A DNA stretch of 64,000 nt from NCBI RefSeq assembly GCF_019059575.1, contig NW_024883389.1, positions 1-64,000 of the forward strand. Reading direction: 5' to 3'. The DNA is from Amphibalanus amphitrite. Lineage: Eukaryota; Arthropoda; Thecostraca; Balanomorpha; Balanidae. The notes under the pieces were generated by a model that saw nothing but the letters and a program-made list of their open reading frames with translations, ran no database searches and was not told where the DNA came from. Positions 22,222 through 53,989 of the stretch are shown one piece after another. The translations under genes and the position numbers were made by a program. Numbering within the stretch: the stretch's first letter is position 1; the number at the start of each line of letters is the position of its first letter.

Positions 22222-22254
22222 TAGAACACCTGAGGAGTGCTGTCGGATTGTCAA

Positions 22255-22929
22255 TCAATCTCGATAGATAAATGACCTGGCACACCTCTCCCGCTTGTGC
22301 CGCGCTATGACCCTACCCTGGACTTGTTCGCTGAACGATGCTCGAACGAAGTTGTCCAGATGAGGATGTTTTTTCAACACAGCATTTATCAGCCAGTCCG
22401 CTTGGGGAACGTTTGGCCCATTCCACCGGATGATGAGCTCGTTTTCCGCACTTTCGTGGTTTAAGCCTCTCGCTTGTTGAGTTCCGAACACGGCTTTTAC
22501 GGCACTCGCCATGCTCTCCACCACACTCTCAGCTGGGGAGAGCAGCCAGAGCCTGGTGACGATCGCCAGGTATGCTGACAGGCGCTGGTCTCCATCCGAC
22601 CAGAGGGTCTTGAACAGCTTTTGATTGGAACCCGGCTCAGTCATTCTGAGTTTTGCGTACGTCGCCATGATCGAGTCCCAAGGGACATCTCCTTTCGGGA
22701 TGATCCTCTCGCGCTGCAGGCGTTCGATAGCCTTTCCCACCTCGGAGACGATACCTGATGATGGTGCGTTTCGGATCCGCTCCAGGTCGCCGGCCATTCG
22801 GATGTGGAACATGCAGTCCTTCAGCTTCATGTTGTGACATCCACGAGTGCGGCCACGCGCATCGACCCCGTGCTCGCGGCTGGCGCAGTGGTTTTCCAGC
22901 TGCTTCGTAAACTGGAAGACTTGCTGCAC
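22255..22929 (-). CDS. hAT-like gene exon 6 (C-terminus)
   Basis: Acceptor CAAACTTTCCAG before 22929, phase 0; TGA stop at 22257-22255. Encodes residues 740-963, including the conserved C-terminal hAT dimerisation-type region. No AATAAA was seen close to the stop. Confidence 0.8.
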   Translation of the reverse strand: MQQVFQFTKQLENHCASREHGVDARGRTRGCHNMKLKDCMFHIRMAGDLERIRNAPSSGIVSEVGKAIERLQRERIIPKGDVPWDSIMATYAKLRMTEPGSNQKLFKTLWSDGDQRLSAYLAIVTRLWLLSPAESVVESMASAVKAVFGTQQARGLNHESAENELIIRWNGPNVPQADWLINAVLKKHPHLDNFVRASFSEQVQGRVIARHKRERCARSFIYRD

Positions 22930-25900
22930 CTGGAAAGTTTGAAAAAATTAATGCCAGCATTCTAATTCCAGCATTCATAACGTTAGGCGGGGACAGGAGC
23001 GCCAAAAAGCTGTTCTTTATCATAACCAGTTTTGAAAACCATTAGAAGCCATTAGCCAAACAGAAATATAGTAGACAGGGTTGTAGGTGCGCAATAACAC
23101 TCCAAATGATGCAGAAGAGTGCTAAGTAGAATGCAATGATCCAAAATTCGTTTATCTTTTAAGAATAGTCCCATTACAGCATGTGACGTCACAATGAGTT
23201 GTATCACCAAAATCACGCAGGTCTTAACAGCGAGTTTCATTACAGGGGTGGTATGAATACAGAAGCAAACTAGACATTGGCATTTTAGTAATGCATTTGG
23301 AGACCAGAACAAAGAAAAGGTAGCTAGCAATGACGTACGTGTAATACATTGAAAATACATGTATGCAAATGGCAAATACTAGATGTGGTATCGATCATTG
23401 TGTTGTGTCATCCATTATTAGGTTTTATCGACGATACTGTAGAAATTACATGCCTACATTATGGTTTGAATTCATTACGGTTAGACTCCGGTGAAGTTTC
23501 TATCATGCATGACCATCAAAACGACCATACAACAGGCTGGTTCTGCACTTCTCAGGCAGTTAAGCATTTTAAAATGGCACCGTGAAGCAAACTGGGCCGC
23601 GTTGGAAGTGGAGAACTAGCATGTTCGCTGTCTCCTATTTATATGAACATACCTGAGGCTCAGATAGAGCACCAATATGCTGGGAGAAGTGCGGCCAGTG
23701 ATCGCGCACATCGTCCTCGTCTCCTTCAAGCAGTGCGGCTTCGAACTCGTGCTCCTGGAGTACAGCGGAGCCTTTACGGTGCCTGGTGGACGGCAGAGTT
23801 CGTCCTTTGAGTCGGAAGTCCTCCACCATCTTCCTGAAGGTCTCCTGCCGTTCCCATGGCAGCTGCTGCAGGTTCTGCAGGCTGCAGCTCGTGTCGCCCA
23901 GAACGGTGTAGAGGTCCAGCAGAGCCGCCAGGCGTGCTCGGAACACGCTACCTGCCAAAAAAGATATCATCAGCCTTCTCCAAATTAGCAGTCCCTTGAA
24001 GTCACGTACTTCATTCGGTTTTCTAAAAAAAAATCGTGAATTGTAACGAAAAGTGAAACGCTAAATGGAAAAAGTTAAACAATTAGCCTAAACAAGAAAA
24101 ACATTTTTGTTGATACTACCGTATAAATTACGACGCCCTCGCAAAAAAAAACAACGTTGCGCGAAACTAAAGACAACGTCCGGACGTACTGAGATGCTGG
24201 AAGAGTAGTGATTAATTCCACGGTGCTACATCTAACCTTCCACATAATATATCGATAATTACCTCTCAAGAGATTGAGATCCTTTTCTTTGTCATCTTCC
24301 TCTGGGTGGGATGCGCGACCGCCGCGGTGTCTGCCATCTCCTCTGAAGTGGTCTTCCAGCACCTCGACGAAGATCGGGATGTTGGCGATGAAAGCCTCAA
24401 CCACCCGAGCAGCGTATGGCGAGAATCGCGTCTCCGACCACAGGAGGAGCCCGCGACCCTTCACGCCGATCCGCTCGCCAGCAGCCAAGAAGTCCTCATG
24501 GCCTTTCCCGTAGGAGAACCGCTTCACGATGCGGCTGATTGCATCTATGGCGACTTGCACCCAGCCACACTCCTTCTTCGCACTGGATTCGGCCAGGTCC
24601 AGCAGATGCGCACCATCCCACAGGCACGGGACACATGCCTCCTCCGATCGCGCCGCGAGGTCTGGGTGTGACGCTCGGAGCTTGACCAGGAATTTGGCCG
24701 GAACGTCGACCCCGTGATACTGGCCGTCAGTGCATATGGCGGAGAGCTTTCTGGTTTCCTTCACTCCGACTGAAGCCACCGTTTTCAGCCACTCTTCCGC
24801 CAGTCCATCACCATCGTGCTTCTGCACCACCGGCGAACCCACCACAAAAGGCTGGATCAGACTGCCGTGGGGCGCTTCCGGTATCAGAGTGATGATGCCC
24901 GTCACGTCCACAGTGCGCCGGTGTATTGTCACTTTGTCCGCGACAAGGGCGACGCAGGGTGCCCGTTCGACGTGCTTCGTCACCGCGTCCAAGATAACAC
25001 CGGCGAAGGCCCCCCTGAACCTTTGCATTTGTGTGGCCGAATGACAGAGGTCTCCCATGTTCGCTCCCATCATGTCGCAGATCACGATCGTATTTTCATA
25101 CAAAACGTAGGGCAGCGAGTACTTGAGCACAAAATATGCTGCCAACAGAGAGTTTCTACAGGCACCTTTCCGCTTCTTAGCTTCTGCTGCATCGCGTGCA
25201 GCAGCCGCATCCCGTTTCTCCAAAGCATTTGTGTGTCTTTTTGAGGACAGATGAGCTTTCACACAATCTTTGAGCCGACTGAATTCCCGTGGCACAGTGA
25301 TCGGCCGGGGGAAGGACGTCCCGCTGTTGAAGTTGTACCGTAGTACCCCTGGCTGCGTCGGCTTAGAAGGATCTAGGTCGATGTCTGGCTTGAATGCAGG
25401 CAAACAAATCTTACAGACTAGCACATTGTGCCTTGGGTGTGCCTCCACCTCTCCCGAGGCCCCCCTCAGTACCGTATCCATATCCCGCGCTCCTGACACT
25501 GACAGACGCAGAGAAGCGCTATGAGACGAGCCTTCCGGTGCTGTTCCCTTCACCAGCTGCTTCAGCTCCACGAGACTCGCCTCTACCCGAGCCATCCTCG
25601 CGGCAGTAGCCATACAAGAGCTGGAACAAGCTGCGCCGGCGTGCGGAGCAGAGTGGAGATGTTTTGCAGCAGAAACATCTGTGAAGACACAGATTCTACC
25701 ATCAGACAATAGCTTCTGACCTTCACACTGGCAAAATTAGCTAAGTTTTCTTAGCTTCACCACTTCTAGGATAAACATGCATTAAATTAGGGGGAGGGGT
25801 GTCAGCATCTATGACAGTTCAGAGTTCCGCCGCTTTAGGATAGAAAGCAGATTGCAATATAAACGACGTATATAACACACTTTATCTGTAGGTGTATTAG

Positions 25901-28849
25901 GTAAATGGCATCACACAATATCAATAGTGAAGCTTGGTTGACTGAGTTATTAACCGACATGTTTAAAACCCCACCAGTGCAGTGTAATACAAGCTCACGG
26001 CGTGCCCGCGGGGCAGGAGGGGGTTCCGCGGGGGCTAAATGCCTGCCAATCCGTGATTGAGCTAAAGCCTCGGATGTAACAGACGCACTAGAAGAGATAG
26101 GGATGGAGTTGGACAGAATCTTATCACCTGCTTTTCGAAGATAGCAAAAAAAAATAGACAAGAACTGTTCAGGATCAGACATGCATACAGGGAATCATGT
26201 TCATATTTTATTTGGGCAAGAACAGACCTGGGCCTTCTGCGGAGTCCATCACTGTTTCACCCGATGACGGCGTGACACTGGCTGGCAGATCTTGCTGAGT
26301 GAAGCCTCCATCAGGACTGACTGCTGGTGGATGAGGAGCAAATAGCTCACCTGAAATTAGAAATATTTATCATATCTAGCTCATCTGGTAAATCGCGCCT
26401 TGGTAGGCATTCATTTCATCTTCAAAGTGGATGAAAAAAGGGATTGGGATTCAAAGGGATTCAAAAGGGATTGGATCTAGACACAAGAGAACCCAGCAGA
26501 AATGTCTTGACACAATTCTAAGGGTTTGAAAAAGCCTTTCTACACCATCAAGCACATTCGACTCACACATGCTACCACCAACAAGCATAAGTCTTTCTCA
26601 TAAAACCATTTTTACACAACTTGACCGCTTATCACTCATAAAATCCAAGCTATGTACAAAAAGTGGGTGCTGGACTTCTTTATTTCAGCTGCTAGAGCCA
26701 GACAACAACATCCAATAAATAATAATAATCACAACTTACAACTTGAACTGAAAAGCACACCTGCTATTTATATTTCAATCACATAACTTTTGGTCAAGAG
26801 TGGTGCAATGGATTTTGCATAGAGAGACAGTGCCTGCTAAATCTTCCAGCAAGAGGTCTCCCAATGTGCATTTTATTTATATCCCAAAAGCTATTGCATT
26901 TCTCCTTGAATCACAGCTAATTGATTTTTGAAGCAGCTATAAAGTGACACAAACATTTTTGTGTAGCAATGGGATATAGTGTGTTGATTACAGGACATGG
27001 GTATAAGGGATGCTGGAACAACACACAAACTGTTCCATGGTTGTTGTTTGTTGGCTGTTGCTGTTTTCTGTTCTACCATCTCTGGTGTGGGTAAGACTTC
27101 AAATATTTGGCAAAATTACACCAGCGCTTACATAGGCAGTTAGGCACATAGGTGCACATTTCAAAGCAATTCTGCACACTGGTTTTCTGAAGATACAACA
27201 TTTCTTTTTTAATTGAAGTGACATAACAGAGTTCAATCTTTCACATGTTTAAAGTTATCTAAATCCTTCCAATGAGTGGCATCCTGCCCAATGAGTGCTG
27301 ATTCCACAATGATATGCCATGCACTCCTCAAGCTCACTTACTTGCACTAGCTGTAGGTAGATTGCTATCAGCTGTGCATCCAGGAGGGCCAGCCACTTCA
27401 TCTGCCAGATGATTTTCAGTGTTGGAGGCTGCACTGACTACAACTTCAATGCTGGAGGGTTGAGCTGAAAAAAAAACATTTGCGTGAATGAATGTTCTTG
27501 AGAGACAGGGTTACATTTGCCACTAGGATGAATGGATCCAAATTGTGTCAAGATTCCATATCATCCACTGTCTACACTGCATAGTTACAGAAGGGAGGCT
27601 TATTATTTAGTTAAGTAACACATTATTTTGCCATATCAACAGATATTACAATATAGCACAGCACCTCAGCTTATTTCATCTAGGAGCACACAATCTATGA
27701 GATGTTCAGTTTTTAGACTCTGGATCAGTTTATTTTCATCTACTAACTTTTATTATGCCTGATAAGTTATTAGGATGTCTCACAGGAAAAAAATATGCAA
27801 GCTAGGTACTTGTTGAGCTCACCGCCTACTCAGCAACATTGGGGAATTTGGGCTCTGGGAATTAGGCCAGTCATTTTGAACTGAAATGGCTGGGGAAGCA
27901 GCTAAAGTTGTTTTGACTTGGAATCCAAGTTCCATTAATTGATTTAATTACATATTTGACCCACTACCCCTTTTACATCCTAAGTCAGGAGAGGTTCAAG
28001 CAGCCTCAACTAAATATGAAACAACACCCCTGATAGGAAGAGTAGGTATAAATCAGTGGATGGTAATACTTTTAAATTGTAATGGGTTTTTCGGCCAATG
28101 GTGAAAATACCATACTTTCCACTGTAGAAAGCATTCAGAACACAAATAAAAGTGCTGCCAAAAGGAGGACAAATGAGAATTTCAGGTAATGGTGAAAAAC
28201 TATTTAGGTTTGATTATTTCTTATTTGGCAAAATGCTTCACACTTTGCTTGGCATTAGTATACAAAAAGTAAGACCGCGAACCATAAATGCCACAGAGAT
28301 GCCAAGGCAGGAATTTTAGGTTGTAGGGTAGTAGGTCGTAGGTAAGCCAAATAGTAGTTAAGTTTAGATACTGTTAGATCCCCAGCAAGGTCCCTTTACC
28401 ATTAAACTGAGGAGGTTTGTCACCAGAGTTTTACCCTTTTATACGACAATTGTCTACAATTTCAATTTACAACATATGCAGGATGAAATATATGAATATA
28501 CATTCCAGTTTTTGTTCCAATAAACTTAGTCACTAGTTCAAAATCCAATGGGTGCCTCTACCTGACAGGTATGGGGTACCTAACAATGCTTACCTTCTCC
28601 AATCACGTCCACAGGCATCTTGGTCCAATTAAAACGCCGACCAGGCCCGAACTGGCTCTCTGGGTACACAGGATAGACCTTTTGGCCTGTGTGTTTCTCT
28701 TTGTTGTGCTTATGGATGCTCTGGTCTGTCAGCTTAACACCACAGTACCCACATTTACACTCTTTTCTGATCCTTTTCGGTTTGGCCTTCTTTGTTCCCT
28801 CTCTCCCAACGCGTGCCCTTCCACCTCTCCCACTCAACAGTGGGTTCAT
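22255..28849 (-). CDS. hAT transposase-like zinc-finger protein (six exons, 963 aa)
   Basis: Exons 28849-28594, 27464-27342, 26350-26228, 25678-24263, 23951-23653 and 22929-22255 all have GT-AG borders, and their phases (1,1,1,1,0) chain into one frame of 964 codons. The ATG is at 28849 and the TGA at 22257-22255. Residues 20-29 are basic; C33/C36 with H48/H53 form a C2H2-like finger. A second possible finger has C256/C259 and H310/H316. The core resembles the RNase H-like hAT fold: D415 in LVADK, D485 in ICTDGQ, and WDGAH at 521-525. The C-terminus has PAESVVES around 870-877 and ENELIIRWNGP around 901-911, as in domesticated hAT-derived proteins of the ZNF862/ZBED type. The expected role is nuclear DNA binding; activity as a transposase is not shown. 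I saw no terminal inverted repeats or 8-bp duplication, so it may be a domesticated gene or an element whose ends I missed. The exon 3 donor (GTCTGT) is weak. Confidence 0.8.
23653..23951 (-). CDS. hAT-like gene exon 5
   Basis: Acceptor TTTTTTGGCAG before 23951; donor CAG/GTATGT after 23653. It is 299 bp, entering in phase 1 and leaving in phase 0. It encodes a helical, charged segment (SVFRARLAALLDLYTVLGD onward). Confidence 0.8.
24263..25678 (-). CDS. hAT-like gene exon 4 (main core)
   Basis: Acceptor TGTGTCTTCACAG before 25678; donor GTAATT after 24263. The 1416-bp exon carries residues 168-640. It holds the second CxxC...HxxxxxH finger and the two candidate catalytic aspartates with the WDGAH motif. 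A frame extending beyond 25678 to 25709 exists but is best read as intron. Confidence 0.8.
26228..26350 (-). CDS. hAT-like gene exon 3
   Basis: Acceptor TTTCTAATTTCAG before 26350; donor GTCTGT after 26228 is weak but keeps phase. It is exactly the size of exon 2 (123 bp) and encodes a Pro/Ser-rich linker (ELFAPHPPAVSPDGG). Confidence 0.65.
27342..27464 (-). CDS. hAT-like gene exon 2
   Basis: A long T tract and CAG precede 27464, and a strong donor GTAAGTGAG follows 27342. The 123-bp exon reads QPSSIEVVVSAASN and onward, a probable linker with no domain. Phase 1 on both sides. Confidence 0.75.
28594..28849 (-). CDS. hAT-like gene exon 1 (zinc finger)
   Basis: ATG at 28849; donor GAGAAG/GTAAGC after 28594. 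Encodes residues 1-85 plus one base, including CGYCGVKLTDQSIHKHNKEKH's cysteine and histidine ligands. Ends in phase 1. Confidence 0.75.
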
Positions 28850-29756
28850 GGCTATTCAAACACGCCTCTCAGATTGTTGCACAGAGATAAACAATCTTAA
28901 TCACCAATATACAAATGCCCAGGCTTGCAAATGCTTGGCAAATATTTAATTTAAGAACAAAGTCACCTCGAAACGCGCCACACACACCGAACAAAAGCTT
29001 CGAGCTTCCCTACCGCATTTAGTTCCAGTATCGCATTAGCATCGCCAGCAAACTTGTGACGTCATGATGTACTGCCAATGAAAGCTGATGATCTCAGCCA
29101 AGTACGCCAATGCTCAAAATGACACGTTCCACAAATGCAACGAATATGTACGTATTATAGGTGCCATCATACTTAATTTTATATGGTAGTTATCCAAAGA
29201 AAGCATTTGTAGCGCATATTTACCATGTTCGGGCCTTTTAAAGGATTCGTGCTCATGACGTCATATTTTCCCCAAACTATTGTTGGGCTTGTCGGGATCT
29301 TGGACATCTTAAAAATTGTTGGCCGTCGAATGTCCTTGAACTGACTATTCTAACACTCTGATTCCAGCTACCAAAAAAGTCTACTAAAAATCCTAACAAA
29401 TTTATCGTTTAATTTTTGTTCACGATGTGAAGACGTCAACCGTATACAAAAAACATCTTAATTTATTACTTTATAAGGGGAAAACAACAAAAAGCGTAAA
29501 ATAACCTAATTAAAAATTCGAGTTGTTTTAATTCTTTCTTCTTCTAGACAACCAACGACAACCAGTGTATCCCATAGAGATAGCGTTATATCCAATGGAA
29601 GTGGTCTTCGGGGCACCGACGGACGGCGAAAACAACCGCGCCGTCGGCGTAGTCGTCGTACTAGTAGATAACATAATGCTAGTAGAGTGAAACAGGTTGG
29701 CACAAAACGGTGAGTATGTGAAATTAACGTGGAATAAAAGTGGGTGATACAGATGT
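28850..29756. other. Intergenic or 3' UTR sequence
   Basis: Upstream of the hAT-like gene and downstream of the stop at 29757. On the minus strand an AATAAA occurs at about 29467-29462, some 290 bases after that stop, and could be the polyadenylation signal of the resilin-like gene. A TGACGTCA lies near 29057. No other gene. Confidence 0.45.
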
Positions 29757-30331
29757 CTATGTCAAAACATATTTTTGAAAGAAAAATAAGTGAAATGAAA
29801 ATCTTTCCTTGTAAATTTGGGTTATGGAAATTAAGGTGAAGGCTTCTATCACTTTTGGTTGTTGAATTTGCCCGTCAGACAGGCTTGTTGGTCGCCGATG
29901 GCGTCGGTAGGACGGAGGGATTTTTGAGCCCTGCCGGAGGGCAGTCCGCTGTGCTGAGTAGTTGTTGCTGTCGGTGGGGCCCCGGAGGGCAGTCCGCTGT
30001 CCTGAGTGTGTCTCGCTGTCCGTCTGTCGGAGCCGGCCCCCGCCCGCCGACTGGCTCTGGCCAGGGTCGGCGCGGGGCGCGTGGCGCGGTCCGCTGGAGG
30101 TCGAGGTCGAGGTCAGTGGGTGGCGGTCAGGTCCGAACTGCCCACTCGGCTCCGTACCGTACGACGAGTAGCTGGAGACCGAGCCGCCCGAGAGCGAGCG
30201 GCCGTCGTGACCGGACGACCCGCCGCCGTGACCTGCGGAGGAGTGTCCGGATCCGCCGCCGTGACCTCCGGAGGAGTGTCCGGATCCGCCGCCGTGACCT
30301 CCGGAGGAGTGTCCGGATCCGCCGCCATGAC
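29757..30331 (-). CDS. Resilin-like gene, GHGGGSGHSS repeat exon
   Basis: Acceptor TTGACCTCTGTTTCAG before 30331, entering in phase 1. Three 33-bp units encode GHGGGSGHSSG-type repeats. They are followed by a Ser-rich region and by ALRGPTDSNNYS, also present in the exon at 20210. The frame stops with TAG at 29759-29757. The last ~45 residues look like read-through into non-coding DNA, but no convincing donor was found. Confidence 0.65.
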
Positions 30332-33300
30332 CTGAAACAGAGGTCAACAGTACAGTCTGTCTTAACCCGCGCGGGGCTGGGGGGGTAAATTTTACCCCCC
30401 CTCGCGAATTTTTGCGATATCTCAAAAACGGCGGCGCGCAGCGCCGCCAAACTTTCAGCACCTTTTCTTACATCAATTTGACACCTTCCCTGAAAATTTG
30501 AGCGAAATCCGTCGGAAAATTTTTGAGAAATTGACGTTTTAGTGACGTCATGTTCGCCATTTTCGCCTCAAAAACGGCAAAAGTTCAAACGCCGCTAACA
30601 TCTTCATTTTTAAAGGAATCAAGACGTAACAAAAAAGGTTATACGTAATTTTACTTTGTCTATCCAATGGCTATCTCGGTTTTTTGAAAATTTTGGATTT
30701 TGGCCTAAATTTTTTCAAAAAACTGATTTTTTTGGGAAAATCATTATAAAATCCAAAATTTTGAGTCTATCAAAAAATCGGAATATATGTCAGAGAAGTG
30801 GTCTATGTGCACCTACATACCAAATTTTAGAAGAATCGGTTCAAAAATGTTGGAGTTATTCAAAATTTTATGACGTCACGACACACAATTTTTTTGAAAA
30901 ATGACTTTTTTGGAAGTTCTAGACCTCGTACGGAAACAAAAATAGCACCATTCGATTCGCCGTGAAAAACTGCATCAGATAGACACCTTTTTAGGCCTTA
31001 ACAACCAACTTCAAAATTTGACCTCACTTGACCTGACCTTGACCTGACCTCGACCTGAAATTCATCCAGAGGTGGTCCATATCACTTATTGAGTGTGCCT
31101 ATTGAATTCTATGAGTAAAATGACCCATAAAACATGTGTCGCACATGCCCTTTTCTATATTTTGTTTTTTGGTGACCTGACCTGACCTGACCTGACCTTG
31201 ACCTTGACCTCTGAATGATATTGTATGCAACTAATATTGTCTTGGTAGCCTAAGAACACGTTTTGGGCGATCAGTCTCAGTCCATGACTCCATTCTTCGG
31301 CAACTACGGTGCAAGGCCGATACTGTAGAAACTTGCAATTTGTACCCTTGACCTGACCTTGACCTTGACCTCAAACTTTAAATTAAGTACATGTTTTTAG
31401 TAGTTCGTGATGAGAGCTTTCGATTGGCGTTTGAATTTTCCAAATCGGACCATTAGTTCGGGAGATAACAGGGGGGGGGGGGGGTAAAATTTACCCCCCC
31501 CCCCCCAGCCCCGCGCGTTCGGCTGGAGACCCCAGCCCCGCGCGGGTTAAAAGTACCGCGCAAAGTGACGGTGGATCCATCAAGCCTGACCGAGGAAGGG
31601 CCTGCTATAATTTGAAAGTCACCGAACCAATGGAGCTGGGGAATGGACGAGGATGTCCATTGCTTCGGTGACTCAAATTTGGCAGTCCTTCATCGGTCAG
31701 GCTTGATGGATCCACCGTCACTTTGCGCGGTACTTTTAAGACAGACTGTACAGCTAATGATGTCCAAGACGTGCCTCATGTATGTCCGCGAGTCATTTAC
31801 TCTCAGCTGTCGGCTTTTACAGGGTGCTGCTTACCCAACACCAAGGTAAATGGCGAGAATGCACAATGCAAGCCTTACATTTTACGATAGCTTGCCAAAT
31901 ATTTCCCAAATCACCGCTAGCCCGCCTGACTAGCCCAGGTATTCGTCAATTTGAAGCCGATAAGGTATATTGGAGTTGGCACTAGGTTTGGTTGAACTGG
32001 TTACACTGGTTTTAAGCTTTCTCACTACCGTATCCACTGTTTGCGCGTTCACCGTCGCCACTGCAAAAGAAATCTCACCTCCACTAGAGGGCGCCCCGTA
32101 GTCGTTGCTGGGCTTAGAGGGCGCCCCGTACCCGCTGCTAGGCCTAGAGGGCGCCCCGTGCCCGCTGCTGGGCCTAGAGGGCGCCCCGTACCCGCTGCTG
32201 GGCCTAGAGGGCGCCCCGTACCCGCTGCTGGGCCTAGAGGGCGCCCCGTACCCGCTGCTGGGCCTAGAGGGCGCCCCGTAGGTGGTCGAAGGCCGGACGG
32301 AGATGTGCCCGCCACCTGTGGAGAGCGGCGGTAACCCTGGTTTCAGTGTTTGCCGATAGATGGCGGACCAGGCGCGGACCAAGTCACCGAGGGTAAACGG
32401 CATGGAGCAGGTGAACACTCGTCACACCAGGAATAGCAGACGAGGCAGCGTCTCATATGGTTTCGATTTATCGATAGCATATGTAATGACGGCATAGTGT
32501 ACAACCAGAAATGAGGCTTTTAAGACAATAATAATTCAAAAACAAATATATTACCCTTGCTTCCAATCATAACTATTATTGTAACAGAAATTTAACGTGT
32601 AGGTATGTGATGTTAACCCTCGCCCATGTAGGGGGGGGGGTTGGTGCAACCCCCCCCCCTGAGGTTTTTCGGAAATAGTGCAAAAACGGCGGCGCGCAGC
32701 GCCGCCAAATTTTGGGTACCTTATGGGGCAAACCTTGCGCATCTTTTGATAAAAAAAATTGACCGGGTCATGTCAGGTCACGGAGTTATGACGTCACAAA
32801 GGGAACAGCCTCCGGCCGGATTTTCACAAACTGAGTGCCAACGCCCGAGGTTTCCTGCCGGTGGTACGGACATCGGTTGATGGATCGTGATGAAACTTCC
32901 CATGCATGTTGGGGCAAGTATTGGCTATCATATGGTATAAGAAACTTGACCGGGTCAGGTCAGGTCACGGAGCTATGACGTCACAAGAGGAACAGCGTCC
33001 GGTACTATTTTTGAAAAGCGCCCGAACCACTATTTTGCTAATTCTTGTCACCTCAATGGGAATATGCAGCAATATTAGCTTCTATAGGGAGCAAATGGAC
33101 ATCCCAAATCCAAAAATACAATCAGATTTCAAAAATTTAAATTTTGATTTTTCGAATTTCTGCCGCCGACTGTGACCTTGCCGACTTCCGGCGCTCCCAA
33201 CGCGCCATTTTTAGAGCTAGGGAAACGAAATACATACCAAACGATAGAGAATTGATCAAGGAACACGATAGTGAAGGTTTCAAGTCGATATCTCCAACCG

Positions 33301-36300
33301 TTTTGCCGCAATCGCCGCGGAAAATTCGAAAAAGTCTATTTTTCCGAAAATTTGACCTTTGACCGGTCAAAAGTAGGTCAAATGTTGACCTAGGACCAAA
33401 AAATATACCACCAATCGCGAGATCTCGGCGAGAGCAATCCGTTGGTCTTTTCCGCTAAGCTCTACGACGCTCCGTTTTCAAACGCCAAGGGGGGGGGGGT
33501 CGCACCAACCCCCCCCCCCCTGCATGGGCGAAGGTGGCAGATCGCCGTTTACGGGCGAGGGTTAAGTTTGCATGCAATAACATAAGAGTCAATAAAGCGT
33601 AATGTCACGCTCGGGCTCACCGGCTCCGCCGTATCCACCGCTGTGGCCTCCACTGTACCCGCCGTGCCCTCCGCCCTTGTTGAACTTGCTGGTCAGCTTG
33701 TTGGCCAAACTGGTGAGGAACCGTCCCTTGGTAGTAAGCAGGCGACCTGGGAAACGTTAGGGGCACTTCACGTGAGCTCTATTACAGGACTTGTCCCCCA
33801 GTGGTAAGCAGACGGTAAAAAGCGATAAAGAACATTTCACATTGGGCATAAGTCTTATTACAGGGACCTTCCCTTGGTGGTTGGTAGATGGTATGGAGCA
33901 GTAAAGAACACTTAACATGGGTTCTATTAGAGGAGCATTCCCTTGCTGGTTTTCAGACGACCTGGGATCTAAACAGTCCAGATCAGGTCAGCAAAACGTT
34001 CGGAGCATTAGTGCTCAACTTTACCGGCTCGTGCCGCGTGTGCCGCATGAAGTTGTGTGTGCGGTGTGCGCCGTGTGTGCCGCTTGTAGTTATGTGTGCG
34101 CTGTGTGCGGTGTGTGCCGTCTGTAGTTATGTGTGCCGTCTGTAGTTATGTGTGCCGTCTGTAGTTATGTGTGCCGTCTGTAGTTCTGTGTGCCGTGTGT
34201 GCCGTGTGTGCCGTGTGTGCTCTGTATGCCGCCTGTAGTGTGTGCGGTGTGTGCGGTATGTGCGGTGTGTGCGGTGTGTGCGGTGTGTGCGGTGTGTGCG
34301 CCGTGCGGTATGTGCGGTGTGTGCGGTGTGTGCGGTGTGTGCGGTGTGTGCGGTGTGTCGTCTGTAGTTGTGTACCCTGTGTGCCGTGTGTGCCGTGTGT
34401 GCGATGTGTGCCGTGTGTGCCGTGTGTGCTCTGTGTGCCGCCTGTAGTGTGTGCGGTGTGTGTGGTGTGTGCGGTGTGTGCTGTGTGTGCTCTGTGTGCC
34501 GCCTGTAGTGTGTGCGGTGTGTGCGGTGTGTGCCGCCTGTAGTGTGTGCGCCGTGCGGTGTGTGCGGTGTGTGCGGTGTTTGCGGTGTGTGCGGTGTGCC
34601 GTCTGTAGTTGTGTGTGCCCTGTGTGCCGTGTGTGCGGTGTGCGCCGTGAGTACCCTGTGTGCCGTGTGTGCCGTGTGTGCTCTGTGTGCCGCCTGTAGT
34701 GTGTGCCGTGTGTGCTCTGTGTGCCGCCTGTAGTGTGTGCGGTGTGCGTGGTGTATGCAGTGTGTGCGGTGTGTACCCTGTGTGCCGTGTGTGTCGTGTG
34801 TGCGGTGTGTGCCGCCTGTAGTTGTGTGTGTGTGTGCCGTGTGTGCCGTGTGTGCTTTGTGTGCCGCCTGTAGTGTGTGCGGTGTGCCGTCTGTAGTTGT
34901 GTGTGCCCTGTGTGCCGTGTGTGCGGTGTGCGCCGTGAGTACCCTGTGTGCCGTGTGTGCGATGTGTGCCGTCTGGAGTTGTGCGTGCGGTGTGTGCCGC
35001 CTGTAGTTGTGTGTGGTGCAGTGTGTGCGGTGTGTGCGGTGTGTGCCGTGTGTGCTCTGTGTGCCGCCTGTAGTGTGTGCGGTGTGTGCGGTGTGTGCTT
35101 TGTGTGCGGTGTGTGTGGTGTTTGCGGTGTGCGCGGTGTGTACCCTGTGTGCGGTATGTGCGGTGTGTGTGGTGTGTGCGGTGTGTGCGGTGTGTGCGGT
35201 GTTACCCTGTGTGCCGTGTGTGCTCTGTGTGCCGCCTGTAGTGTGTGCGTTGTGTGCGGTGTGTACCCTGTGTGCCGTGTGTGCCGTGTGTGCCGTGTGT
35301 GCCGCCTGTAGTGTGTGCGGTGTGTGGTGTGTGTGGCGTGTGCGGTGTGTACCCTGTGTGCGGTGTGTACCCTGTGTGCCGTGTGTGCGGTGTGTGCCGC
35401 CTGTAGTGTGTGCGGTGTGCGCGGTGTGTACCCTGTGTGCCGTGTGTGCTCTGTGTGCCGCCTGTAGTGTGTGCGGTGTGTGCCGTGTGTGCGGTGTGTG
35501 CGGTGTGTGCGGTGTGTGCCGCCTGTAGTTGTGTGTGCGGTGTGTGCGGTGTGTGCCGTGTGTGCTCTGTGTGCCGCCTGTAGTGTGTGCGGTGCGTGTG
35601 GTGTGTGCTTTGTGTGCGGTGTGTGTGGTGTGCCGTCTGTAGTTGTGTGTGCCCTGTGTGCCGTGTGTGCGGTGCGTGTGGTGTGTGCTTTGTGTGCGGT
35701 GTGTGCTCTGTGTGCGGTATGTGCGGTGTGTGTGGTGTGTGCGGTGTGTGCGGTGTGTGTGGTGTGTGCGGTGTTACCCTGTGTGCCGTGTGTGCTCTGT
35801 GTGCCGCCTCTAGTGTGTGCGGTGTGTGCGGTGTGTACCCTGTGTGCCGTGTGTGCCGTGTGTGCTCTGTGTGCCGCCTGTAGTGTGTGCGCCGTGCGGT
35901 GTGTGGTGTGTGCGGTGTGTGCGGTGTGTACCCTGTGTGCCGTGTGTGCCGTGTGTGCCGCCTGTAGTGTGTGCGGTGTGTGCGGTGTGTACCCTGTGTG
36001 CCGCCTGTAGTGTGTGCGGTGTGTGCGGTGTGTGCGGTGTGTACCGTGTGTGCCGTGTGTGCTCTGTGTGCCGCCTGCGGTGTGTGCGGTGTGCGCGGTG
36101 TGTGCGGTGTGTGCGGTGTGTGCGGTGTGTACCCTGAGTGCCCGGTACACCTGTGTGTCACCCCCGGGACGCGGCGGCCGCTCACCTCCTTTGCGCAGCA
36201 GCTTTCCCTTGATTAGCACCAGCGGCGCCTTCACGGCGCCTACGAGGCCGCCCAGCTTCTGCTTGAGGCCGCTGAACTTGTGCGTGATGCCGCTGATCTT

Positions 36301-39300
36301 GTGCTTGATGCCGCTGAACAGGCGGCCCTTCTTGGAGAACAGCGAGCCGATGTTGAACTTGCCGCCCTTGCCGCGACCTTTGCCGTAGCTGTGCCCTCCG
36401 CCGTGACCTCCGTGACCTCCGCCGTGACCTCCGCCCTGGCGGCAGGCGAACAGGTCAGAGGGTGGTCGTCAGTAGCCACACTGCCGCCAGCGTGGTCATA
36501 GGCGCAGCCCAGTGGACCACCCGGCCGCCCAACAGCACACCCGGGAACCAGCCCAGCAGCACATCCGGGAACCAGTCCAACAGCACACCCGGAAATCAGC
36601 CCAACAGAACACCCGGGAACCGGCCCAACAGCACACCCGGGAACCAGTCCAACAGCACACCCGGGAACCAGTCCAACAGCACACCCGGGAACCGGCCCAA
36701 CAGCACACCCGGGAACCAGTCCAACAGCACACCCGGGAACCAGTCCAACAGCACACCCGGGAACCGGCCCAACAGCACACCCAGGGACCAGCCCAACAGC
36801 ACACCCGGGAACCAGCCCAGCAGCACACCCGGGAACCAGTCCAACAGCACACCCGGGAACCAGTACAACAGCACACCCGGGAACTGCAGTCCAACAGCAC
36901 ACCCGTGGACCAGTCCAACAGCACACCCGTGGACCAGTCCAACAGCACACCCGGGAACCAGTCCAACAGCACACCCGTGGACCAGCCCATCAGCACACCC
37001 GGGAACTGGGTCTCAAAGGAGACCCGCTCGCTGGGTCAGATATGTAGATGGGGTTAGGTCAGATATGATGTACGGGACTGGGTTAGATATAGACGGGACT
37101 GGGTCTGATATGTACCTACAGGTCAGATATACATAGACGGCCTGTGGGCATTAAATATGTCAAGTTCATGAAAGCTTAAATTGTGTAAAATGCGTGAAAT
37201 GTGTAATGTGTAAAACGTGTAAAAGCAGGTAAATGTGACTTTACAATACGAGTATGTTAACCCTCGCCCTGGCAGGGCATTTTTCATAACACGGCCTGGC
37301 AGGGGGGGGGGGGGTCGATGCGACCCCCCCTCGCGATTGGCTCCTATGGCACCTAGAAACACCAAATTTGGTAGGTAGGTGGGCCCCCTGGAGTTCTCGC
37401 CCCTGTGCAAATTTGGTTGCTCTAGGTCAATATTTAGGGGGGTTTTGGGGGGTATAAATGCAAAAATTTCGCTAAAAACAGGTCAAAAGTTTTTCGCTTA
37501 TAACTTTTGATCTAATTAAGATACAGCAAAAAGAAAAGCACCAGTGAACTCAGCACGTCAAGGCGCGTCGCATGATATACTTTTTAGGTTGCTTAAGTGT
37601 ACTTAAAGTTTTTCTTAAATTTTAAGTAAACTTAAATTAATAAATTAAGTTAAAGTTAACCAAATTGCATCATATCGCATATCATTCGATTCGGCTGATC
37701 ACCAGGAACACAATGATACCATTTTTTAAGCTCTAGCGTCATTATGTGCCAAGTTATTGGCAAAAACGTCATTTGACCTCAGTTGACCTCATTTGACCTG
37801 ACCCATGGATAAGTACACCAAACAAAGAAGCACCAAGTGACCTGCTGTTAATTACTGTGGTTTCAAAGCACAAAAGTGATAGAACGAAGCGGATATCTCC
37901 AGTATTTTCCGAATTTAGTATTTTCCCATAGGCTTAACATTACGACGTAATGACCTCTAACTGACCTCAGGTCAGTGACCTCAAAAAACCCGAACTATAT
38001 GTTATACAACTCGGTGAACTTAGCACATCCTGAAAGTTTGAAGGAAATCAGTGCAAAACTGTGAGTTGGACAGGTGCAAAAAGAAAATTGAAATTTGACC
38101 ATGACCTTGTACCGGTTTTTCTGACCTGGTGACCTGACCCAAGGTCACCCGGACCTGAAATTTTCAGGTCATATGTAAAAAGGTTGCCCCATAAGCTGTG
38201 CCAAATTTGGCGGCGCTGCGCGCCGCCGTTTTTACGCTATCTTCGAAAAACCTTAGGGGGGGGTCGCATCGACCCCCCCCCCCTGCCAGGGCGAGGGTTA
38301 AGACTGCTGTAGGTTCTCGGCTGCTGCGGCGGTGCGCGGTGCGCGGACGTCCCTGTTCCCTGACACTGTGCCTGCTGTCCTCGGCTGCGGCGGCGGCGGC
38401 GCGTGCACGCGTTACAACACCCGCCGCCACCGGGAGAAATGGCCGGCCGGTGGTCACTGTTAGTGTTCAGCAGCGTAAAAACGGCTCCTCCGATCACGCC
38501 AGGAGGAGGTTTCCCCGCCACCAGCACTGTCGTCAGCGGTGTCGTCTTCAACGCAGTCGCCGCCGCTACCGCACGTCCCATCCCGCCCCACCACCGCCGC
38601 TGCCACCGCTGTTACCGCCGCTGACCACTGGACGGCAGCTGGCACTGCTGTCATTGCTATCGCTGCCGCCTCTGTCGGCGGTACCACTGGCTCAGCCTAC
38701 ACACGCTGCCACCGGCCAGTTGCAGCGGTGTGCCGATAAACCAGCTCAGGGGCGCTGGATGCGCCGTGCAGCGGGCAATGCGGCGTCGAGCGTAAGTCAA
38801 GCTTTTGGTGCTCCGAGATCGATTCAATATAGCAATTATGTGAACATTAGTCAACTGTATGTATTGTTGGACCCACAAAGCTTTCGGCGTGCAATTTGAA
38901 AACGTGAATGCTGCACACCTAGGCGGGAAGGAGGTCGGAAAACAATTGGTTTTGCAGCGTTCTTCTTGTTACGAATGCCTTTAACAGTGACCAAGACATT
39001 TTCATCGGTGCACGCCATCCGGCTGGTAATTTACGAGCTAAAGAGCCGATGATGCACGCGCGCGCTAGCGGCTAACCAGACGGAAATACGCGCGCTAACC
39101 AGCCGGTAAAACCCGCGCTAACCAGCCGGTAACAGGCCGGTAACACCCGCGCTAACCAGCCGGTAACAGGCCGGTAACACCCGCGCTAACCAGCCGGTAA
39201 CAGGCCGGTAACACCCGCGCTAACCAGCCGGTAACAGGCCGGTAACACCCGCGCTAACCAGCCGGTAACAGGCCGGTAACACCCGCGCTAACCAGCCGGT

Positions 39301-51300: not shown

Positions 51301-52231
51301 TTCCTCTCGTCGAGACGCGTCGAATGAACTATAATTTGACCCTGAAGAGTCAACTTGAAAATTTGACCTCAGGTCAAGGTCTTGAACTGACCGGAAAAGG
51401 TCATGTTGCATATCAGTCGATCCGCAACGTCGAGCCGAACACATCTAAGGCGTTATCAGCGCTCTAGCACGCATCTATCCGAAGTTATTAGCGAAAAACT
51501 GTTAGATTTTGTTCGTGACCTGAGTCCTGAGATGACCTTGGGGACATAACGATGTAGCTATATCGGTGTAGCTATAACGAGCATTCTTATTTTTTCTGGG
51601 GTGAGGTCACTTGGCGTGACCTGGTGACCTGACCTAAGGCGACCTGGGTCTGAAATTTTCACAACATGTGCGGAAAAGATGCACAAACAGGTGTGCCAAA
51701 AACCGCGGCGCTCCGCGCCGCCATTTTTGAGATATCTGCGAAAAACCGCAAGGGGGGGGTGTTCAAACACCCCCGTCCCGGCGCGGGTTAAGTTATTTAT
51801 ATAATGAACCGCATCGGTTACCAGTTTTCCTCAGTGAGGCTTATTATTCCCTTACTCCGCCAGTGAGTCCAGTTACCCCCTATCCCCCCAGTGAGTCCAG
51901 TTATCCCCCTATTCCCCCAGTGAGTCCAGTTATCCCCCTATCCCCCCAGTGAGTCCAGTTATCCCCCTATTCCCCCAGTGAGTCCAGTTATCCCCTTATT
52001 CCCCCAGTGAGTCCAGTTATCCCCCTATTCCCCCAGTGAGTTCAGTTATCCCCCTATTCCCCCAGTGAGTCCAGTTATCCCCCTATTCCCCCAGTGAGTC
52101 CAGTTATTCCCCTATTCCCCCAGTGAGTTCAGTTATCCCCCGATTCCCCTGGAGACGTCACTCACCGATCGGTAGCCTCTGGCTGAGACGGCGGTTACCG
52201 TCACCGTCAGCAGCAGCAGCCACACGGCCGT
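29757..52231 (-). CDS. Resilin-like Gly/His-rich secreted structural protein gene (5' exon missing)
   Basis: Exons 52231-52166, 36435-36186, 33746-33621, 32315-32079 and 30331-29757 chain with canonical GT-AG borders: the first junction is phase 0 and the other three are phase 1. They give 417 residues after a missing first exon. Order: hydrophobic signal core TAVWLLLLTVTVTAVSA; Gly/His-rich GGHGGGH; a basic segment with heptads SGIKHKI, SGITHKF and SGLKQKL; a second Lys-rich segment; GGHGGYSGG; about seven ten-residue RPSSGYGAPS repeats; three eleven-residue GHGGGSGHSSG repeats; a Ser-rich tail. YGAP repeats with RPS are typical of arthropod pro-resilins, so an extracellular elastic or cuticular role is inferred. 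I saw no chitin-binding R&R domain. Arthropod cuticle genes often split the signal peptide this way, with ATG plus a codon or two in exon 1. The introns hold TTAA elements and minisatellites. The tail after about 29900 looks less coding, so the true end may differ. Confidence 0.7.
30350..30361. repeat. Left half of a split palindrome
   Basis: GTACAGTCTGTC directly precedes TTAA (30362-30365). The right half, GACAGACTGTAC, is at 31740-31751, after the second TTAA-bounded insertion. Together with the central TTAA they make a perfect 28-bp palindrome. Confidence 0.9.
30366..31546 (-). mobile_element. AGGTCA/TTAA element in an intron of the resilin-like gene
   Basis: A 1181-bp element between TTAA at 30362-30365 and 31547-31550. 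The left hairpin loop TAAATTTTA and right loop TAAAATTTA, each between G and C runs, are exact inverted copies. It has a GGCGGCGCGCAGCGCCGCC palindrome near 30430. TGACCTGACCTGACCTGACC runs into TGACCTTGACCTTGACCT at 31158-31212. No coding capacity. Confidence 0.85.
31551..31735. mobile_element. Short foldback MITE bounded by TTAA
   Basis: A 185-bp near-complete inverted repeat between TTAA at 31547-31550 and 31736-31739. The arms start AAGTACCGCGCAAAGTGACG and end in the inverse, ...CTTTGCGCGGTACTT. It would fold into one long hairpin. It shares its left TTAA with the preceding element. Confidence 0.85.
31740..31751. repeat. Right half of a split palindrome
   Basis: GACAGACTGTAC follows the TTAA at 31736-31739 and is the exact inverse of 30350-30361. 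Confidence 0.9.
32079..32315 (-). CDS. Resilin-like gene, YGAPS repeat exon
   Basis: Acceptor CCGCCGCTCTCCACAG before 32315; donor GGAG/GTGAGA after 32079. It is 237 bp, phase 1 on both sides. After GGHISVRPSTT come about seven copies of a 30-bp unit encoding YGAPSRPSSG, one with H for Y and the last reading KPSND. This is the clearest resilin-like section. Confidence 0.85.
32617..33561 (+). mobile_element. AGGTCA/TTAA element in an intron of the resilin-like gene
   Basis: A 945-bp element between TTAA at 32613-32616 and 33562-33565, with CCCTCGCCC and GGGCGAGGG ends. The hairpin loops GGTTGGTGCAACC (left) and GGTCGCACCAACC (right) are inverted copies with one mismatch. It makes up most of the 1305-bp intron between two exons. 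It contains GGTCAGGTCAGGTCACGG near 32950 and GGCGGCGCGCAGCGCCGCC near 32690. Confidence 0.85.
33621..33746 (-). CDS. Resilin-like gene, Lys-rich and GGY exon
   Basis: Acceptor CCCTAACGTTTCCCAG before 33746; donor GCCG/GTGAGC after 33621. It is 126 bp, phase 1 on both sides. Encodes RLLTTKGRFLTSLANKLTSK, then a Gly/His/Tyr-rich segment (GGHGGYSGGHSGGYGG). Confidence 0.8.
34020..36145. repeat. 2.1-kb GTGTGCGGT/GTGTGCCGT minisatellite in an intron
   Basis: Compound repeat of 9-10-bp units (GTGTGCGGT, GTGTGCCGT, GTGTGCTCT) punctuated by GTGTGCCGCCTGTAGT. It fills most of the intron 36185-33747. Its unit keeps long frames open on both strands (Thr-His-rich on minus, Cys-Val-rich on plus). These are artefacts of composition, not genes. 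Confidence 0.95.
36186..36435 (-). CDS. Resilin-like gene, Gly/His and basic heptad exon
   Basis: Acceptor CTGTTCGCCTGCCGCCAG before 36435; donor AAAGGAG/GTGAGC after 36186. It is 250 bp, entering in phase 0 and leaving in phase 1. Encodes GGGHGGGHGGHGGGHSYGKG, a KGGKFNIGSLFSKKGR segment, then amphipathic heptads SGIKHKI, SGITHKF, SGLKQKL and GGLVGAV, and a basic KLLRKG end. Confidence 0.8.
36520..37010. repeat. 24-bp minisatellite with CCCGGG
   Basis: About 20 units of CACACCCGGGAACCAGTCCAACAG with few variants. Lies in the long intron just upstream (in gene sense) of the exon at 36435. All three frames are open in places, but no gene is inferred. Confidence 0.95.
37261..38297 (+). mobile_element. 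AGGTCA/TTAA element
   Basis: A 1037-bp element between TTAA at 37257-37260 and 38298-38301. The ends are CCCTCGCCCTGGCAGGG and CCCTGCCAGGGCGAGGG. Hairpin loops GGGTCGATGCGACCC (left) and GGGTCGCATCGACCC (right) are exact inverses. It has a GGCGGCGCTGCGCGCCGCC palindrome near 38208. No coding capacity. Confidence 0.85.
38302..39090. other. Unassigned GC-rich sequence
   Basis: A plus-strand open frame from 38198 to 38899 overlaps the end of the TTAA element and is Ala/Pro/Arg-rich with no domain. I do not accept it as a gene. Trinucleotide-like GCC/GCT runs are frequent. Confidence 0.4.
39091..39530. repeat. 34-bp satellite-like array
   Basis: About 12 almost identical 34-bp units built from CCGGTAACACCCGCGCTAAC followed by CAGCCGGTAACAGG. 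The uniformity suggests recent expansion or gene conversion. Units abut without spacers. Confidence 0.95.
39531..39944. other. Unassigned sequence
   Basis: GC-rich DNA with a TGACGTCA octamer near 39699. Small overlapping open frames only. Confidence 0.4.
39945..40150. repeat. Approximately 57-bp tandem repeat
   Basis: Four imperfect units containing GCACAGGACGCTGAGACAGA, TTCGGTCGGAGGACGGA and GTGCAGTGTGCAC. Confidence 0.85.
40320..40373. repeat. 14-bp tandem repeat CAGTCCCGTCAGGT
   Basis: Four to five units, each restoring an AGGTCAGT word at the junction. Confidence 0.85.
40374..40627. mobile_element. Two foldback units with GGAGTC runs
   Basis: Unit 1 (40374-40478) starts CAGGGCTGCGGAGTCGG and ends CGACTCCGCAGCCCTG. 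Unit 2 (about 40484-40627) has the same right end. The interior is (GGAGTC)n with a short non-repeat core. CAGGG...CCCTG inverted ends fit hAT-type non-autonomous elements, but I found no clear 8-bp duplication. Confidence 0.6.
40628..41146. other. Unassigned sequence
   Basis: GC-rich then AT-rich. The open frame 40506-40997 (plus) starts inside the foldback repeat and has no domain. No gene called. Confidence 0.4.
41147..41385. mobile_element. Foldback MITE, Tc1/mariner-like size and ends
   Basis: About 239 bp; arms of roughly 105 bp start TTATAATGGGATAGACAATG and end in the inverse. The loop is short (near 41258-41280). Ends with TATA could reflect TA target duplication. No coding capacity. 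Confidence 0.8.
41457..42602 (-). mobile_element. AGGTCA/TTAA element, subfamily B, inverted
   Basis: A 1146-bp element between TTAA (41453-41456) and TTAT (42603-42606). The hairpin loops GGCTATTTTTTGCC (left) and GGCAAAAAATAGCC (right) are exact inverses. It has GTGACCTGACCTGTGACCTG near 42275. The internal sequence matches 63303-64000 in reverse. Confidence 0.85.
42622..44280. mobile_element. DNA transposon-like unit with 29-bp inverted ends
   Basis: The left end, GGGCCCGATTTCACCAAGTG and onward to 42650, is repeated in exact inverse at 44252-44280. The 1659-bp interior holds a 134-codon plus-strand frame (42967-43371) with no recognised domain and no transposase motif, so the unit is probably non-autonomous. 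The superfamily is uncertain because no clean target duplication was found. Confidence 0.7.
44281..45049. other. Unassigned sequence with a CCGG-rich tandem patch
   Basis: From about 44445 to 44600 there are seven or so imperfect 23-24-bp units of GGAGACCCGGTAACCCGCCG. The rest is GC-rich with a 15-G run near 44958. No gene. Confidence 0.5.
45050..45148. repeat. Long hairpin, 43-bp arms
   Basis: Arms 45050-45092 and 45106-45148 pair with about three mismatches around a 13-nt loop. The arm starts GGCCGGGTACGGACGGATGG. Confidence 0.85.
45168..45228. repeat. Second hairpin, 29-bp arms
   Basis: Arms 45168-45196 and 45200-45228 pair at 28 of 29 positions with a 3-nt loop. The arm starts ACGTCGGGATAAGACCCA. 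Confidence 0.9.
45310..45644 (-). mobile_element. tRNA-derived SINE, copy 2
   Basis: Read on the minus strand from 45644: GTCCCATATCTCAGTTGGTA (A box), then GGGTTCGAGTC (good B box). The body matches the copy at 21820-22165, and the tail is A/T-rich at 45310. This copy has the better tRNA-like head. Confidence 0.8.
45842..46125. repeat. 49-bp tandem array with TGACGTCA and a hairpin per unit
   Basis: TGACGTCA occurs at 45842, 45867, 45916, 45965, 46021 and 46070. Most units are 49 bp; one is 56 bp. Each unit also has CCGTCACG...CGTGACGG as a small hairpin. Confidence 0.9.
46480..47385. repeat. 28-bp purine-rich minisatellite
   Basis: About 32 units of AGCGAGAGGAAGGGGGCAGG plus AGTAGAGC. Variants differ mostly by G/A at a few positions. 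The minus strand has 434- and 321-codon frames of Leu/Pro/Ser repeats, which are artefacts of composition. Confidence 0.95.
47386..48104. other. Unassigned AT-rich sequence
   Basis: Contains short AAAATGCCAAAAT direct repeats at about 47590-47655. No gene. Confidence 0.45.
48105..49430. repeat. 42-bp satellite-like array, two unit variants
   Basis: About 31 units, each GTAAGTGGGGGCCGTCCCCG, ATATCGACA and a variable part. The variable part is CACCGCTGCCAGT in most units and GATCTCTGTCAGT in others, the latter usually coupled to AAATGGGGACC. The unit length is a multiple of three and keeps long frames open on both strands; no gene is inferred. Confidence 0.95.
49431..49695. other. Unassigned sequence
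   Basis: No gene. Contains a TGACGTCA-like word near 49637 (ATGACGTCAC). Confidence 0.4.
49696..49980. mobile_element. Short MITE with CAGGGCYCAATCTTAC ends
   Basis: The left end CAGGGCCCAATCTTAC and right end GTAAGATTGAGCCCTG are inverted. An internal (ATTC)n microsatellite lies at about 49785-49815. CAGGG termini fit hAT-type MITEs, but the flanks (AGACGAAC and GCGCCGAC) are not a clean duplication. Confidence 0.65.
49981..50840. other. Unassigned sequence
   Basis: Three short direct repeats of TGCGACCGTTTGTAAACGTTATC type at about 50485-50570. Otherwise nothing recognised. Confidence 0.4.
50845..51787 (+). mobile_element. AGGTCA/TTAA element, subfamily A
   Basis: A 943-bp element between TTAA at 50841-50844 and 51788-51791, with CCCGCGCCGGGCC and GGCGCGGG ends. 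The terminal hairpins GGGTGTCTGAACACCC and GGGTGTTCAAACACCC are inverse copies with one mismatch. It has GGTCAGGTCAAAGGTCAGGT near 51003. Confidence 0.85.
51850..52145. repeat. 28-bp minisatellite
   Basis: About ten units of CCCAGTGAGTCCAGTTATCC plus CCCTATTC. It ends just downstream (in gene sense) of the signal-peptide exon. Confidence 0.9.
52166..52231 (-). CDS. Resilin-like gene, signal-peptide exon
   Basis: Acceptor CTCTCTGTGTCCACAG before 52231; donor TCG/GTGAGT after 52166. The 66-bp, 22-codon exon reads TAVWLLLLTVTVTAVSARGYRS. The hydrophobic core and VSA/R boundary fit a signal peptidase site. It has no ATG, so a short upstream exon must supply it; I did not find it up to 64000. Phase 0 at the donor matches the exon at 36435. 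Confidence 0.75.
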
Positions 52232-53745
52232 CTGTGGACACACAGAGAGAGATACAGTCACTGTCTGTGGACTGATACTGTCAGCAGCAGCAGCCACACG
52301 GCCGTCTGTGGACACAGAGAGAGATACAGTCACTGTCTGTGGACTGACAGAGAGACGGCCAACTGTCTGTGGACTGACAGAGAGACGGCCAACTGTCTGT
52401 GGACTGATACTGTCAGCAGCAGCAGCCACACGGCCGTCTGTGGACACACAGAGAGAGAGATACAGTCACTGTCTGTGGACTGACAGAGAGACGGCCAACT
52501 GTCTGTGGACTGATACCGTCAGCAGCAGCAGCCACACGGCCGTCTGTGGACACACAGAGAGAGATACAGTCACTGTCTGTGGACTGATACTGTCAGCAGC
52601 AGCAGCCACACGGCCGTCTGTGGACACAGAGAGAGATACAGTCACTGTCTGTGGACTGACAGAGAGACGGCCAACTGTCTGTGGACTGACAGAGATACAG
52701 TCACTGTCTGTGGACTGATACTGTCAGCAGCAGCAGCCACACGGCCGTCTGTGGACACAGATAGAGATACAAGATACAGTCACTGTCTGTGGACTGATAC
52801 TGTCAGCAGCAGCAGCCACACGGCCGTCTGTGGACACAGAGAGAGATACAGTCACTGTCTGTGGACTGATACTGTCAGCAGCAGCAGCCACACGGCCGTC
52901 TGTGGACACAGAGAGAGATACAGTCACTGTCTGTGGACTGACAGAGAGACGGCCAACTGTCTGTGGACTGACAGAGAGACGGCCAACTGTCTGTGGACTG
53001 ATACTGTCAGCAGCAGCAGCCACACGGCCGTCTGTGGACTGACAGAGATACAGTCACTGTCTGTGGACTGATACTGTCAGCAGCAGCAGCCACACGGCCG
53101 TCTGTGGACACAGATAGAGATACAAGATACAGTCACTGTCTGTGGACTGATACTGTCAGCAGCAGCAGCCACACGGCCGTCTGTGGACACAGAGAGAGAT
53201 ACAGTCACTGTCTGTGGACTGATACTGTCAGCAGCAGCAGCCACACGGCCGTCTGTGGACACACAGAGAGAGAGATACAGTCACTGTCTGTGGACTGACA
53301 GAGAGACGGCCAACTGTCTGTGGACTGACAGAGATACAGTCACTGTCTGTGGACTGATACTGTCAGCAGCAGCAGCCACACGGCCGTCTGTGGACACAGA
53401 TAGAGATACAAGATACAGTCACTGTCTGTGGACTGATACTGTCAGCAGCAGCAGCCACACGGCCGTCTGTGGACACAGAGAGAGATACAGTCACTGTCTG
53501 TGGACTGATACTGTCAGCAGCAGCAGCCACACGGCCGTCTGTGGACACAGAGAGAGATACAGTCACTGTCTGTGGACTGATACTGTCAGCAGCAGCAGCC
53601 ACACGGCCGTCTGTGGACACAGAGAGATACAGTCACTGTCTGTGGACTGACAGAGAGACGGCCAACTGTCTGTGGACTGACAGAGAGACGGCCAACTGTC
53701 TGTGGACTGATACTGTCAGCAGCAGCAGCCACACGGCCGTCTGTG
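52232..53745 (-). repeat. Array of duplicated splice acceptors and exon starts
   Basis: Higher-order tandem repeat of roughly 70-130 bp. On the minus strand each of about 16 units has CTCTGTGTCCACAG followed by ACGGCCGTGTGGCTGCTGCT. This is the 3' splice site and first ~26 nt of the adjacent signal-peptide exon. Units then diverge to ACAGTATCAGTCCACAG and stop codons. Some units carry extra ACAGTTGGCCGTCTCTCT inserts. Confidence 0.9.
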
Positions 53746-53938
<193 letters not shown>

Positions 53939-53989
53939 CAGTCACACAAAGAGACGGCCAACTGTCTGCGGACTGACAGAGATACGGTA

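Follow-up and report, generated by a model that had tools for sequence, protein, structure and literature searches.

A mirage-like array of repeated splice acceptors in front of a signal-peptide-like exon in a barnacle gene

How does a gene come to carry some sixteen near-identical copies of a splice acceptor in front of one of its exons, and do these copies matter for splicing? A preliminary description of this DNA had offered three options: a splicing regulator, a source of aberrant transcripts, or a tandem expansion that does no harm since a downstream donor exists for the last unit alone. The window, that is the whole stretch analysed, comprises bases 1-64000 of contig C1892 (95,386 bp) in a genome of 807.5 Mb. 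A lancelet study describes mirages in BflGb6, BflGb9 and Adh3, in which an intron-exon boundary is duplicated in tandem in the manner of a minisatellite (PMC3087553). We consider it likely that the array studied here is a neutral, expanded minisatellite of the mirage type, and that splicing normally proceeds to the last acceptor, which lies 66 nt from the only good donor.

The 23-mer across the acceptor junction, GTCCACAGACGGCCGTGTGGCTG, has 17 perfect matches on the minus strand of the window, representing 16 decoys and the true exon, versus an expected count of 0.00 in 100 shuffles. The earlier figure of about 16 repeated acceptors and signal-peptide starts before the real exon is thus borne out. 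The decoy exon starts run from 53740 (outermost) to 52305, and successive full copies are spaced 70-135 nt apart. As had been claimed, the true exon at 52231 is the copy nearest the donor GTGAGT at 52165, being the last of the array and next to that donor. The exon part common to the copies, previously given as the first 26 nt or so, measures about 29 nt and ends in GAC[A/G]GT. GTGTCCACAG is present in 16 of the 17 copies, with TCAGTCCACAG in its place in the copy at 53031. The unit core reads ...GACAGTATCAGTCC in 15 copies, GACGGTATCAGTCC in one and GACGGTGACGG in the true exon, so that 15 of 17 cores are identical. The modules are ordered in a higher-order repeat, and TRF also reports periods of 353 and 286 bp across the array. 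The repeated units are therefore real, but the one literal motif that had been quoted for them, CTCTGTGTCCACAG, occurs only 9 times, or 13 times if one extra TG is permitted.

Interspersed among the full decoys are short cousins, absent from the preliminary description, of the form CAGTCC[A/G]CAGACAGT, each with its own AG (n = 28; 27 inside the array and one beyond the TC tract). Acceptor-like sites of the form CC[A/G]CAGAC number 45 in all. The (TC)n-type tract of the outermost full decoy had been described as pure and 191 bp long; it is 186 nt in length and interrupted by one TT, which divides it into 91 and 95 nt. The diverged short unit beyond this tract suggests that the tract expanded inside the array, and it is probably a late expansion within the pyrimidine tract of a single unit. 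The coordinates of all features are listed in Table 1.

Table 1. Features of the array and of its host gene, in window coordinates.
Feature	Position	Strand	Details
Outermost diverged short unit, beyond TC tract	53937..53985	-	TCAGTCCGCAGACAGTTGGCC...GTGACTGTATC; related unit at the outer edge in C437
(TC)n-type pyrimidine tract of outermost full decoy	53751..53936	-	186 nt, one TT break
Mirage array	52232..53740	-	16 decoys, each a pyrimidine tract, AG and about 29 nt of exon 2
Exon 2	52166..52231	-	66 nt; TAVWLLLLTVTVTAVSARGYRS; signal-peptide-like; phase 0 in, 0 out
Exon 2 donor	52160..52165	-	GTGAGT; by donor scoring
29-bp minisatellite	51844..52149	-	begins 16 nt past the first donor base of exon 2, donor excluded; longer in C437
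Exon 3	36186..36435	-	GGGHGGGHGG...KGKLLRKG; phase 0 in, 1 out; acceptor CAG/GGC, donor GGAG/GTGAGC
Exon 4	32079..32315	-	GGHISVRPSTTYGAPSRPSS repeats; phase 1 in, 1 out; coding 30-bp VNTR
Exon 5, first part	29934..30331	-	HGGGSGHSSGG...SAQRTAL; phase 1 in; broken at 29933 by insertion
Transposon-like insertion in exon 5	20172..29933	-	9,762 bp; inverted ends CAGGGCTCAAAAA; flanked by CCCTCCGG (8-bp direct repeat); not in the C437 copy
Exon 5, continued open frame after insertion	18622..20171	-	to TAG at 18622; single frame with first part in C437

The host is probably an animal gene whose product would be secreted and rich in Gly, Ser and His. The signal-peptide-like frame of exon 2 contains a plausible cleavage site. 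With splice sites picked by eye, the exon phases fit throughout: 0/0 between exons 2 and 3, 1/1 between exons 3 and 4 and 1/1 between exons 4 and 5. The use of exon 2 is suggested, indirectly but consistently, by this frame, the good donor, the phase fit and the presence of the exon in a second copy of the locus, which lies on contig C437. Seven junctions of the host gene were tested, and six of them are single-copy within 5 kb (the probe for the exon 4 donor was one base off); the boundary duplication is therefore particular to exon 2. Pfam searches of eight window frames revealed no identity for the host gene except a 'Mucin-like' match to exon 4, which is probably driven by composition, and Rfam and tRNA scans yielded no matches.

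Exon 2 contains no ATG, so exon 1 must provide the start. Within the window, a strict search gave no candidate for exon 1 and a looser search gave nine weak ones. The best candidate, ATGAAG/GTACGT with a score of 6/7, lies outside the window at contig position 66858, and its product would start MKTAVWLLLL.... The sequence of this candidate is unique to the C1892 contig in the genome and has no match in the C437 stretches compared, one of which is half N; a C437 candidate also scoring 6/7, at 497055, is not its counterpart. Short ATG-donor pairs number 8 in C1892 (54-94 kb), the one at 66858 included, and 19 in C437 (425-504 kb), indicating that chance matches are common.

Donors and branch points were scored by consensus rules. 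Between 53990 and 52100, the GT at 52165 is the only one scoring at least 5/7 against the donor consensus, with 20 others scoring 4. This single donor makes the tolerated expansion, with a downstream donor for the last unit only, the best supported of the three options. By exon definition, the acceptor nearest to the donor should win. Since the array contains no good donor, the use of a decoy would need an exon of 140-1575 nt. In the scored stretch, pyrimidines make up 0.65-0.85 of the full decoys and 0.75 of the true site; an AG-free stretch of at least 23 nt is present in 15 of the 16 decoys. By both measures the outermost decoy, with the TC tract in front of it, ranks highest and exceeds the true site. 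Most full decoys are therefore credible acceptors, and as many of them equal the true one in these respects, undisturbed splicing is not guaranteed. The units had been said to diverge into stops. This holds for the full decoys, all 16 of which meet an in-frame stop when spliced to the donor at 52165, but not for four of the 28 short sites (52396, 52366, 52336 and 52264), which read through to the donor in frame without a stop, each with another AG 5 nt upstream.

Genome-wide, the junction 21-mer TGTCCACAGACGGCCGTGTGG has 19 occurrences, of which 16 lie on C1892 (the copy at 53031 differs within it) and three on C437, and none at any other locus. Likewise, with five candidates scored, the exon 3 protein matched the C1892 and C437 loci only. 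The two contigs are colinear over 33 blocks between 10.0 and 92.6 kb of C1892, with 25.7 kb aligned at 94.2% mean identity; this mean is biased upward because only blocks of at least 200 bp and at least 88% identity were kept, a few of which may be repeats. On C437, the array consists of two decoys and the true exon and lacks a long TC tract. Its length thus differs between the two copies (16 versus 2 decoys), and neither the high copy number nor the tract is shared. We consider it likely that the two copies are haplotypes, that is alleles; they could also be recent paralogues. Elsewhere in the genome, the S6e gene has two loci of 3.2 kb, with 94.5% identity over 1,350 bp, and L19e a single one, so that duplicate haplotypes would have been kept only in part.

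Two further differences lie upstream of the arrays. On C437, the short array is preceded by about 12.5 kb to which nothing in the window corresponds, and CCCTA/CACTA runs are found there in tandem units that measure about 1.0 kb (L009:1400-3500). In intron 1 of the window, antisense to the gene, an LTR retrotransposon that we take to be BEL/Pao-like lies at about 54426-59225 (plus strand), with Pfam matches to DUF1759 and SAP and with LTRs of 372 bp that are 100% identical. At its site C437 has 259 bp versus about 4.9 kb in the window, indicating a recent insertion in one copy only.

The later exons of the host gene differ between the copies as well. The coding repeat of exon 4 (32084-32280, minus strand) differs in frame by 90 bp, or three units of 30 bp. 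Exon 5 is split in the window by the 9,762-bp insertion, whose ends and 8-bp target duplication are reminiscent of hAT elements; Pfam searches of three frames inside it gave no match at E up to 1. Across this insertion point, exon 5 of C437 forms a single open frame in which a 48-bp coding repeat occurs 12 times, and it carries at another site, further on, a transposon-like insertion of 1,709 bp (384217-385925, L036/L019) flanked by ACTGGGGGC. With an insertion in coding exon 5 of each copy, this individual may have an impaired gene, unless splicing removes the insertions. A codon comparison of the two copies gives synonymous/nonsynonymous counts of 1/1 in exon 2 (the nonsynonymous one being Thr to Ala), 6/2 in exon 3, 1/4 in the repeats of exon 4, and 12/12 in the first part and 10/21 in the continuation of exon 5. 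They total 30/40, and 40 of 70 are hence nonsynonymous. Pooled over the exons, third codon positions account for 36 of the 73 base differences (one-sided binomial p = 0.003). By these ratios, only exon 3 suggests protein constraint. The host-gene exons may be outside present selection and the gene damaged.

We propose the following course of events. The 3' end of intron 1, together with about 29 nt of exon 2, would have been duplicated in tandem, and unequal exchange would then have expanded or contracted the array, leaving 16 decoys in one copy and 2 in the other. Under exon definition, the nearest strong acceptor, at 52231, would be matched to the donor at 52165, which yields the 66-nt exon. 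Use of an upstream full decoy would give the long exon with its in-frame stop, and RNAs of this kind would either seldom form or be cleared, for example by NMD. The array would be tolerated and, quite probably, plays no functional part; it resembles an unstable repeat, of an uncommon sort that has been described before, and not a designed switch. Tolerance was possibly made easier by the large insertion in a later exon of the same gene copy. The preliminary idea of a tolerated expansion hence agrees with the donor evidence and with the short array of C437, but it needs the caveat that a 9.8-kb transposon-like insertion sits in a later coding exon. As to the other two options, a role as splicing regulator is possible but unsupported, and aberrant transcripts from the array are plausible.

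A regulatory reading would make the array a rheostat, in which the decoys divert splicing to stop-containing RNAs and an allele with more decoys loses a larger share, so that the amount of protein is tuned. The decoys' pyrimidine content and AG-free stretches, the outermost decoy with its TC tract, the stops in all 16 full decoys and the difference between 2 and 16 decoys would all suit it. We regard it as improbable, because the array lacks a good donor and decoy exons would be long, because exon 5 of this gene copy is interrupted by the 9.8-kb insertion, and because lancelet mirages are reported to leave splicing undisturbed (PMC3087553; PMC3902484). The four open short sites would allow protein variation instead, by adding 55, 45, 35 and 11 residues, respectively, before the signal peptide. 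This is scarcely credible: each site is preceded by another AG, the two equivalent sites within the C437 array are out of frame, and long N-terminal extensions would probably harm secretion.

Weightier is the possibility that this gene copy, or both, is nonfunctional and the array free to expand. The split of exon 5 in both copies, at different sites, and the nonsynonymous majority among the differing codons point that way, whereas exons 2 and 3 are intact together with their splice sites, as is the exon 5 frame of C437 up to its insertion, exon 3 has mainly synonymous differences, the 90-bp difference in exon 4 preserves the frame, and the insertions might be removed by splicing. Decay of the gene is a serious possibility on this balance, though still the less probable side; it is compatible with a neutral mirage and bears on the condition of the host gene alone. 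Tandem arrays beside a TC tract are hard to assemble, and with a short C437 copy at hand a wrong array length in the contig might be suspected. Such an artefact is very unlikely, as the variable length and order of the units argue against simple artificial repetition and the separate C437 copy also has a mirage. It is equally doubtful that the exon at 52231-52166 is unused, or a chance reading, and the array an ordinary intronic minisatellite. Exon 1 is not firmly placed, which would fit, but the signal-peptide-like frame, the good donor, the phase-matched next exon and the retention of exon and splice sites in the second copy all stand against it.

As judged from its sequence, the array is a mirage by anatomy, a large new example of a described class with an ordinary mechanism: 17 repeats span the intron end and the adjoining part of the exon, and the authentic exon is the last copy, adjoining the donor. 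Similar to the lancelet mirages, the unit consists of the intron 3' end, AG and the 5' part of the exon, and edge copies diverge from homogenised inner ones (PMC3087553). The BflGb6 mirage has 6 and 3 units in different haplotypes; its units are 150-160 nt and those of Adh3 10-72, compared with 70-135 nt and 16 decoys in the barnacle (PMC3087553). The same study reports RT-PCR suggesting undisturbed splicing, and boundary-spanning minisatellites are proposed there as raw material for new introns (PMC3087553). Unlike these cases, the barnacle array involves a signal-peptide exon of an unrelated gene, a layer of short cousins and a 186-nt TC tract (PMC3087553). In lancelet PGBD5, tandem repeats of 60 and 108 bp include 5' or 3' splice sites, similar to the present array, but in few, imperfect copies; splicing is reported to be accurate, and troponin C is also cited (PMC3902484). 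The minisatellite of human IFI6 (6-16) likewise lies over an exon boundary and repeats splice sites, but these are donors, reportedly used in alternative transcripts (Turri et al. 1995, as summarised in PMC4526556), versus acceptors here. In the barnacle, the sole donor scoring at least 5/7 lies outside the array, and its junction is single-copy within 5 kb. Among the matches listed in a literature search, for which most subscription papers were out of reach, there was no such boundary-spanning structure outside lancelets.

The locus offers a natural experiment on acceptor choice, with one exon, one donor and 2 or 16 near-identical upstream acceptors on what are probably two haplotypes, and the short C437 counterpart in the same genome makes the array more useful. 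If splicing is accurate on both copies, exon definition alone overrides 16 upstream acceptors; if it is not, the decoy copy number is a natural dial.

Repeats are also abundant beyond the array. TRF arrays of period at least 10 cover 15.3% of window bases, and all TRF arrays 18.2%. Other large minisatellites, with 9-, 28- and 42-bp units, are found at 34055-36142, 46472-47368 and 48100-49427, which makes the window repeat-rich.
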